IMG/VR virus record: IMGVR_UViG_3300029981_000047
Location: 1-30,044 of that record
From: a virus
Length of the DNA stretch: 30,044 nucleotides
Strand: one strand, 5' to 3'
The position numbers and the translations under genes were made by a program. A model generated the notes under the pieces. The model saw only the letters and a list, made by a program, of their open reading frames with translations. It was not told where the DNA came from and ran no database searches. How positions within the stretch are numbered: the first letter of the stretch is position 1; every line of letters starts with the position of its first letter. Shown here in pieces: positions 20,389 to 25,361 of the stretch.

Positions 20389-20412
20389 TGTCGGGTACAT
20401 CGTTTGTTAGGC
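20389..20412 (-). repeat. attC-like site F, truncated (R''-L'' half only)
   Basis: On the minus strand this reads GCCTAAC, then AAACGATG, then TACCCGACA. It matches the first half of the other cassette sites, including the CCGAC with the unpaired A. The expected second half (L' and GTTAGGC) is absent; unrelated sequence follows. The stop codon of the upstream gene lies inside the core box, as in the other cassettes. It marks the distal end of the array. Confidence 0.7.
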
Positions 20413-20694: not shown

Positions 20695-20777
20695 GCCTAA
20701 CGCTGAGATAATCCGCAAGCCAGTTGGCAACCCATGTAGGCGTTACTTTGGCTTGTCGGATTCATCGTTTGTTAGAC
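20695..20777 (-). repeat. attC-like site E (83 bp, complete)
   Basis: Outer boxes are GTCTAAC and GTTAGGC (minus strand). Inner arms AATCCG-a-CAAGCC and GGCTTGCGGATT pair with one unpaired A, the typical extrahelical base of attC sites. The AACAAACG start matches known long attC sites. It is about 80% identical to site A at 26108-26190. Confidence 0.9.
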
Positions 20778-21351
20778 GGCTTTTATTTTCCTGAAAGTGT
20801 TTTGAATGCAAGTGCAGCCACGCTTGGAACTTGTCCATTTCCAACTCTTGCGAGCCGCTCCACATTTCCGGCCAATTCATCATCCACTCTGCAAAGGTAG
20901 GGTGGCAAGCTATCTTCTTCTTTATTCTTCCATTCATTTCTCTCCCTGCAAAATTCTTCCACAGACCGATCAAACGATGTGAAAGACGGCTGGTGTCTTT
21001 CCAAGTCTCGCTGGATCTTAGTGGCCCCACTTCGTGAATGATCCTTGCCATTTCTGCCCACAATCCGCTTCTAGTTCCCTGTTGGATTCCTCTTCTGAAT
21101 CCTGCGGGGCTGATGTCCTGGCATGGGAACCCTCCACAAACAATGTCTGCAATTCCTTTCCATGGCTTCCCGTCAAATGTGCAGACATCATCCCAGATTG
21201 GGAACCATGGCAAAGCTCCTTCTCGTTGCCTTTGAATGAGTTTGTCTCTAGCATCTTTTTCAAATTCAACTGCGCAAACTGGCCTATGTCCGAGAAGTAA
21301 GCCGCCGAGGATTCCTCCCCCCGATCCTGCAAATAAGTGTAGCTCATTCAT
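20743..21351 (-). CDS. Cassette gene: DNA cytosine-C5 methyltransferase, internally shortened
   Basis: This 202-residue frame begins MNELHLFAGSGGGILGGLLLG (AdoMet-binding motif I) and has GGFPCQDIS (motif IV with the catalytic Cys) at about residues 73-81, followed by RSGLWAEMARIIHEVGP. Typical relatives next carry motif VI (ENV) and motif VIII. Both are missing here, so a full enzyme is unlikely unless another frame is used. The end (PTFAEWMMNWPEMW...MDKFQAWLHLH) resembles one known type of phage Dcm tail, and it runs on into attC site E. An overlapping frame holds the classical C-terminal motif. The gene may be a deletion derivative or need a frame change. Confidence 0.65.
   Translation of the reverse strand: MNELHLFAGSGGGILGGLLLGHRPVCAVEFEKDARDKLIQRQREGALPWFPIWDDVCTFDGKPWKGIADIVCGGFPCQDISPAGFRRGIQQGTRSGLWAEMARIIHEVGPLRSSETWKDTSRLSHRLIGLWKNFAGREMNGRIKKKIACHPTFAEWMMNWPEMWSGSQELEMDKFQAWLHLHSKHFQENKSRLTNDESDKPK
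20783..21061 (-). pseudogene. Overlapping frame carrying the C-terminal motif of a C5 methyltransferase
   Basis: In another frame over the 3' half of the methyltransferase gene, the last 35 residues read RVDDELAGNVERLARVGNGQVP and then SVAALAFKTLSGK. This is the classical motif IX-X end of phage C5 methyltransferases. Its stop lies five bases before attC site E, exactly where a cassette gene should end. The upstream part of this frame (from the ATG at 21061) is not recognisable. Most likely it is the original C-terminus, now separated from motifs I-IV by a deletion or frameshift. A dual-coding end is the alternative. Confidence 0.6.
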
Positions 21352-21374: not shown

Positions 21375-21420
21375 GTCTAACACCCTAGTGACCCCTGTTT
21401 TTCACATCCCGTTATCCTGA
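21375..21420 (-). other. attI-like docking site 2 (single core box)
   Basis: On the minus strand the sequence ends GGTCACTAGGGTGTTAGAC, with GTTAGAC the core box directly before the methyltransferase cassette. There is no partner RYYYAAC box upstream, so it does not form an attC hairpin. About 38 of 46 bases match the site at 26387-26432, which also precedes a first cassette. A single-box site at the head of an array is what an attI site looks like; an attC remnant is the alternative. Confidence 0.55.
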
Positions 21421-24701: not shown

Positions 24702-24753
24702 GCCTAACGCTGAGATTACCCGCACGTAGTGTCGTGTACATCGGTTGTTAGGC
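24702..24753 (-). repeat. attC-like site C (52 bp, complete)
   Basis: Both boxes are perfect (GCCTAAC and GTTAGGC, minus strand). The arms pair with an unpaired A, giving a compact hairpin of the shortest attC class. It is virtually identical to site D. Confidence 0.92.
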
Positions 24754-25361
24754 TATGCCGTTAATAAGTCCAATTGCGCTGTTTCGTACTTGATACGCTT
24801 TTGCATTGCCGCAAAGTAGTCTTTGTCTAGCTCTGATCCTGTTAGGTCAAAGCCCATTTGATGACACGCAATGGCTATGCTACCGCTTCCAAGATGCGTA
24901 TCTAGTACATTATCTCCTTTCTTTGCGTAGTTGTGTAGTAACCATTTATATAGGGCTACTGGCTTTTGTGTAGGGTGAAATCTATCTAGTTGCATTGGGT
25001 TTATCTTTTTTATTCGTGTACCACCAGAGCGAACCCAAGCAAACTCGCACTCCGCAAAATCACGCCCATACATTGTTTCTCCTTTATCCCAAATAGCAAA
25101 ATACTGATTAGGAGGTAGATTAAAATAATTACCTCCCCAGATTATTTGATTTTTAGATATTCTGAACAGCTCAATAAAATATGATTCATCTGGTACTGCA
25201 GAATCCCATGTTTTTTTTGTAGGCATTACAGTTTTACGAGATCCCATATTCATTTTATTTACATCAATCCCATAAGGTGGGTCAACAATAGCCAGCTCGA
25301 AGTGCTTGTCTGGGTATTGAGCCATAAGCTCCATGCAGTCCATGTTTCGTAAATCAAGCAT
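24753..25361 (-). CDS. Cassette gene: DNA methyltransferase (N6-adenine/N4-cytosine type)
   Basis: This 202-residue enzyme would methylate an exocyclic amino group in DNA using AdoMet. Motif IV DPPYG lies at about residues 27-31, then a WGGNYF segment, FHPTQKP near residue 129, and the AdoMet motif I region VLDTHLGSGSIAIA near 152-165. This motif order is that of the beta-class D12-independent N4/N6 group (PF01555), and the DTHLGS variant is common in phage versions. The length is full for a phage stand-alone enzyme. GAGGAAC in a shared leader lies before the ATG, and the stop TAG falls within the conserved cassette end. Target specificity is unknown. It probably protects phage DNA from restriction. 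Confidence 0.9.
   Translation of the reverse strand: MLDLRNMDCMELMAQYPDKHFELAIVDPPYGIDVNKMNMGSRKTVMPTKKTWDSAVPDESYFIELFRISKNQIIWGGNYFNLPPNQYFAIWDKGETMYGRDFAECEFAWVRSGGTRIKKINPMQLDRFHPTQKPVALYKWLLHNYAKKGDNVLDTHLGSGSIAIACHQMGFDLTGSELDKDYFAAMQKRIKYETAQLDLLTA

Follow-up and report, generated by a model that had tools for sequence, protein, structure and literature searches.

The 30,044-nt stretch of DNA analyzed here (IMG/VR record IMGVR_UViG_3300029981_000047, from an uncultivated virus; hereafter the window) carries on its minus strand, within an integron cassette, an internally deleted gene for a cytosine-5 DNA methyltransferase (C5-MTase), whose intact relatives appear to encode two proteins in overlapping frames of the same bases. 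We estimate at roughly three in four the probability that these two proteins are the chains of one C5-MTase, that this arrangement is phase-variable in some phages by means of a homopolymer tract, and that the window copy is a dead deletion chimera of it. Frame A would provide the catalytic chain with motifs I–VIII and X, and frame B, in the +1 frame, a chain of 230–330 residues that contains the target-recognition region and terminates in a motif IX-like part. In all likelihood the two form a single enzyme in the fashion of M.EcoHK31I and shield the phage DNA against host restriction. In some phages, a G tract changing in length would simultaneously disrupt or reconnect the two frames, and in the window a single out-of-phase deletion within the cassette would have taken the middle of both frames, so that the N-terminus of A is now joined to the C-terminus of B.

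Homologs were collected from IMG/VR, GTDB genomes, phages and plasmids. In nearly all of them frame A is full-length, with motifs I–VIII followed by ...EPNVGRVADGVAARVDRLKAIGNGQVP, and the same bases in the +1 frame read ...WPTPTA...LNPTWVEWLMGWPLGWTDLKPLEMDKF. This +1 frame does not contain any stop codon in 124 of 132 family genes, compared with a mean of 4.65 stops after shuffling of synonymous codons, and the same applies to 64 of the 66 full-length genes that were located without using frame B. None of the 184 neighboring open reading frames (ORFs) of at least 200 residues examined as control was open in +1, and improbably long +1 runs (p ≤ 0.05) occurred in 128 of 132 family genes versus 7 of 184 neighboring genes. 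Chromosomal canonical C5-MTases with a whole PF00145 domain, E. coli dcm included, do not possess an open +1 frame either and are a clean negative control. Long B-like +1 runs were also present in several more distant MTases of phages and an archaeal plasmid, namely those of N15 (gp58), BcepC6B, Lc-Nu, Tadhana and a Methanomethylovorans plasmid. Gram-positive phage MTases with their own motifs IX and X (L270–L348) were improbably open in +1 over motifs II–VIII in 68 of 69 cases (p < 0.05), and these stretches matched the B profile with E-values down to 2e-18. Seventy canonical Gram-positive phage MTases, none of them open throughout, were dropped as negative control for this reason.

The beginning of frame B is conserved as well. 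Its ATG is located exactly 4 nt past the start of A in 107 of 132 genes, and it arises from an Asn codon that is invariably AAT (121 of 121 cases), although only 42% of the Asn codons overall (578 of 1380) are AAT. A Shine-Dalgarno-like motif is commonly found 4–5 nt upstream of the A start and thus 8–9 nt upstream of B, and B is probably translated.

Selection on frame B was examined in 118 gene pairs and in 23 equally divergent pairs of control genes. B-changing substitutions that leave A unaltered reached 0.295 per site in the family versus 0.554 in the controls, whereas sites silent in both frames, of which there are few (728), were saturated in each set (0.80 and 0.82, respectively). The ratio of nonsynonymous to synonymous substitution rates (dN/dS) was 0.49 for frame B versus 1.3 for the +2 control frame. 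Along the gene, constraint on B was strongest at EWLMGWP (0.10), over which silent change is lowest, and at SxTWPxWGMM (0.18); the N-terminal half of B is constrained too, and in the linker between motifs VIII and X it is B that is held, with A being nearly unconstrained. Since B is under purifying selection and doubly silent sites vary freely, these findings point to dual coding and not to a constraint at the DNA or RNA level, and at the level of the family dual coding, with purifying selection on B, is strongly supported. The original prediction had proposed to examine both frames of homologs for selection, expecting only one to be conserved if the resemblance of the other was due to chance; both frames turned out to be conserved. 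As one of two alternatives it had also offered an overprinted 3′-end, of which the overprinting stands, but it covers essentially the entire gene and not the 3′-end alone.

Two explanations would not require any second protein. The first regards frame B as a mere shadow of conserved A residues and codon bias, and the strong conservation of A residues in this family would indeed make some similarity in B automatic. Nevertheless, synonymous shuffling destroys the open frame, comparable openness is seen neither in neighboring genes nor in canonical C5-MTases, and A-silent sites are slow only where B changes, which makes this explanation very improbable. The same low probability is assigned to a constraint on the DNA or RNA itself, such as a recombination site or an RNA structure, with the conservation of both frames as a by-product. 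Such a constraint would preserve A-silent sites; however, the observed one tracks the codons of B, and the saturation of the sites silent in both frames led to its rejection.

With respect to the identity of B, its proteins match phrog_1008, labelled as DNA methyltransferase, with E-values down to 1e-74, whereas frame A matches phrog_363. These two are listed as separate DNA methyltransferase families, but here they match two frames of one gene. Sequence searches of B against Pfam, NCBIfam, PADLOC and the PDB yielded nothing convincing. More informative are MTases that are split into two genes in mycobacteriophages and in related contigs (L349–L366). Here the first gene stops after motif VIII and the second, located in the +1 frame and overlapping the first by 182–260 nt, contains, all in one frame, a region resembling B, an EWMMGxxxGW element and motif X. 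The beta half of such split MTases from actinophages is related to B (hhalign E 4e-22), and in L180 from the Actinomycetota a B-like stretch is found in frame between motifs VIII and X (E 6e-24). This kinship is consistent with a function of B in target recognition. In phage PeterPeter (L265), both split genes are annotated merely as “DNA methylase.”

MTases consisting of two chains are known in nature, among them M.AquI, with motifs I–VIII on one chain and IX–X on the other, and M.EcoHK31I, with motifs I–VIII and X on one chain and IX on the other (PMC3404938). M.EcoHK31I is described as two polypeptides (PMC3404938, citing Lee et al., 1995), and the small domain of other MTases as consisting of motif IX and the recognition region (PMC3404938). 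Frames A and B would together have the motif layout of M.EcoHK31I, to which they are likened by layout and not by sequence, and its large chain (I–VIII and X) is matched by frame A of the intact homologs, not by the deleted window copy. The small chain of M.EcoHK31I is encoded within the large gene, in an alternative frame. In the family described here, by contrast, the second frame spans essentially the whole gene, has its start codon 4 nt downstream, is found in numerous phages and prophages, and is in some cases accompanied by switchable G tracts. M.AquI and the split actinophage MTases (L349–L366) are similar in that motifs I–VIII are on one chain and the target-recognition region is on another, together with motifs IX–X. 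Motif X is thus on their second chain, whereas in the window family it belongs to frame A, where this frame overlies the motif IX-like end of B. In addition, the overlap in the split actinophage MTases is partial, whereas it is near-complete in the window family. Literature searches in open-access full texts found no description of such an overlap in phages.

Some relatives contain poly-G tracts of variable length, which suggests phase variation. Family genes contained 11 runs of at least nine G or C in 164 kb, compared with 3 such runs in 685 kb of their flanks, an enrichment of about 15-fold. A DNA pattern search for the tract after motif VIII (L248, L249, L253, L368–L395) revealed G10 to G15 in relatives. 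Where the flank is the same, reading continues in B after G12 (L253), in A after G13 (L380), and in the third frame after G14 or G11 (L384, L385, L395). In this one clade, variation in the length of a poly-G tract swaps the C-terminus between A, B and the third frame. A second tract of 10–17 G follows motif IV (L396–L446); its pattern was found in 51 contigs, always in this gene, and the 49 contigs that could be phased led into A (35), the third frame (10) or B (4). Three pairs of contigs are identical over 450 nt on each side and differ in tract length alone (L396/L437 with 15 versus 13, L398/L435 with 14 versus 15, and L440/L442 with 13 versus 15). It is possible, albeit doubtful, that slippage at such tracts acts as a three-state switch on catalytic and target-recognition chains in full-length overlapping frames, connecting the N-terminus of A to one or the other of the C-terminal frames, or to neither, and thereby altering or silencing the methylation pattern.

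These tracts could also be taken to mean that the C-termini of A and B are alternative ends of one catalytic domain, reached via tract slippage or ribosomal frameshifting, and that a separate full-length B does not exist. In line with this, the N-terminus of A reads into B in L248, L249, L253 and others as well as in L258, variable tracts are situated after motifs VIII and IV, and the window ORF has the same layout. However, B has a conserved start codon of its own and a constrained N-terminal half, most family genes lack a long G tract, and the N-to-B joins do not contain motif X in frame. We therefore consider alternative ends unlikely.

Several observations weigh against two chains of one phase-variable enzyme. 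In a direct profile comparison of B with canonical MTases, the best local match was exactly motif IX, but it was not significant (E 0.22), so that the identification of motif IX in B rests on its pattern and on the fused and split relatives. The AlphaFold model of B was of low confidence (predicted local distance difference test score of 60), the B part remained unresolved in a low-confidence model of the fusion of the A N-terminus and B C-terminus from L248, and Foldseek found no structural match in the PDB. Furthermore, the B-like +1 stretch in the Gram-positive phage MTases is not explained by the two-chain model, the 132 family genes are related and hence do not represent 132 independent tests, and in metagenome contigs the length of a homopolymer may be a sequencing error.

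The window copy was examined with profiles of A and B built from the intact homologs. Among the 877 six-frame fragments into which the window was translated, they gave four significant matches and no others (Table 1). The frame-A profile matched the main ORF at model positions 2–111 (E 1e-58) and a separate ORF at 21070–20786 at model positions 204–263 (E 2e-11). The frame-B profile matched the ORF 21347–21021 at positions 1–107 (E 1e-33) and the C-terminal 48 residues of the main ORF at positions 216–263 (E 4e-14). PF00145 matches the main ORF at residues 3–110 only (E 3e-13), where LFAGSGGG (motif I) and GGFPCQD (catalytic motif IV, PCQ) are present. Positions 112–203 of the frame-A profile, which include motifs VI (ENV) and VIII, were absent from every frame of the window. 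The original prediction, according to which motifs I and IV are kept and motifs VI and VIII are lost, was thus borne out by PF00145 and the frame-A profile. Its two family-like C-terminal frames on the same bases (A at about 20968–20789 and B at about 20922–20779) were both matched by profiles, with further matches of the B-type end to phrog_26627 and phrog_35493 (E 1e-5) and of the A part to phrog_363 (E 0.003). The N-terminal ORF of B, which it had not reported, is family sequence as well, and its ATG is located 4 nt downstream of the frame A start, as in the relatives.

Frames A and B each keep both ends in the window, and the middle is gone. The loss amounts to about 92 codons in A and, in B, to about 108 (the B core, model positions 108–215). 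The distance from the start to GNGQVP (motif X) is 509 nt and out of phase, compared with a minimum of 618 nt in relatives, and GNGQVP is present but not in frame with the chain carrying motifs I–IV. A single internal out-of-phase deletion is the simplest account of these findings, and the remnant of a deletion or frameshift suggested initially holds for the window copy. Since the window does not contain any run of nine or more G or C, phase variation is not the explanation of its change of frame; the idea that a frame change swaps the C-terminus applies to the clade with the poly-G tract.

As motifs VI and VIII are gone, the chimera is expected to be catalytically dead, and most likely the window copy arose by deletion and is inactive. 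It might instead be a working variant, the chimera being a functional small cassette protein, considering that the ORF is open for 202 codons and bounded by attC and that its layout resembles the naturally joined N-to-B states of relatives. The absence of catalytic motif VI, motif VIII and the B core, and the fact that the ORF enters attC rather than stopping ahead of it, render this quite improbable. Slightly less improbable, yet still not favored, is an assembly or sequencing artefact, as the deletion is known from a single copy on one metagenome contig of an uncultivated virus; against this stand the lack of long G or C runs and the coherent structure of the flanking cassette.

Table 1. Features of the MTase cassette in the window.
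Feature	Position	Strand	Basis or remarks
Main ORF	20743–21351	minus	202 residues; A N-terminus joined to B C-terminus
Frame A N-terminal part, C5-MTase motifs I to IV, end ...MARIIHEVGP	21022–21351	minus	Frame-A profile and PF00145
Frame B (+1) N-terminal part, 109 residues, stop just past junction	21018–21347	minus	Frame-B profile and ORF
Deletion junction, approximate	20969–21021	minus	Gap between profile matches and start-to-GNGQVP distance
Frame A C-terminal part (RVDDELAGNVERLARVGNGQVP...), motif X, stop 20785–20783	20783–20968	minus	Frame-A profile, phrog_363
Frame B C-terminal part (HPTFAEWMMNWPEMW...MDKFQAWLHLH), motif IX-like	20779–20922	minus	Frame-B profile, phrog matches
attC closing the MTase cassette, 83 nt	20695–20777	minus	R″ GTCTAAC, R′ GTTAGGC, imperfect arms, unpaired A
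GTTAGAC core site, cassette 5′ edge	21375–21381	minus	Sequence

If two chains are encoded, a large number of C5-MTases from phages and prophages would be half-annotated, with a partner needed for activity being missed, and cloning or codon-optimising the annotated frame alone would destroy the enzyme. How a target-recognition module originates by overprinting would become directly testable, and phage biology would gain a phase-variable form of anti-restriction through the poly-G tracts. To our knowledge, the near-complete overlap of two conserved proteins of about 250–300 codons would rank with the longest overprints on the same strand in double-stranded DNA phages. Databases give one frame or the other, at times as two families. 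Public annotation consists of frame B only for L092, L267 and L268; L095 is among the records annotated with frame B instead of A or with both frames as methyltransferases, the latter being frequent in Paenibacillus larvae phage records. In contigs L070 and L073, frame A is interrupted but frame B is open (350 and 290 codons, respectively). L367, from a prophage of E. coli PCP07014, has stops in both frames (A: LLV*, B: LFE*) and is annotated as a pseudogene.

The setting of the window copy is that of an integron cassette. As originally noted for the second C-terminal frame, frame A stops (20785–20783) five bases ahead of attC, the R″ box of which is located at 20777–20771, and the main ORF with its B-type ending extends into attC. 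The bottom strand of attC folds into a hairpin as single-stranded DNA (-17.4 kcal/mol, z -4.8 versus shuffles). Clusters of cassettes lacking an integrase (CALIN) with attC sites and MTase cassettes have already been described in phages (PMC9892861); the MTase domains of that survey are N6_N4_Mtase, Methyltransf_11 and Methyltransf_16, and no C5-MTase cassette is named there. The ORF of the next cassette (20679–20407, minus strand) showed a borderline match to the rifampin ADP-ribosyltransferase Arr-ms (PF12120, E 1.5e-5) and a good one to phrog_2110 (E 3e-15), and the site following this second cassette is truncated to R″ (20406–20412). A further DNA methyltransferase-like ORF with a DPPYG motif, by eye of the N6/N4 type, is located at 24753–25361 on the minus strand of the window.
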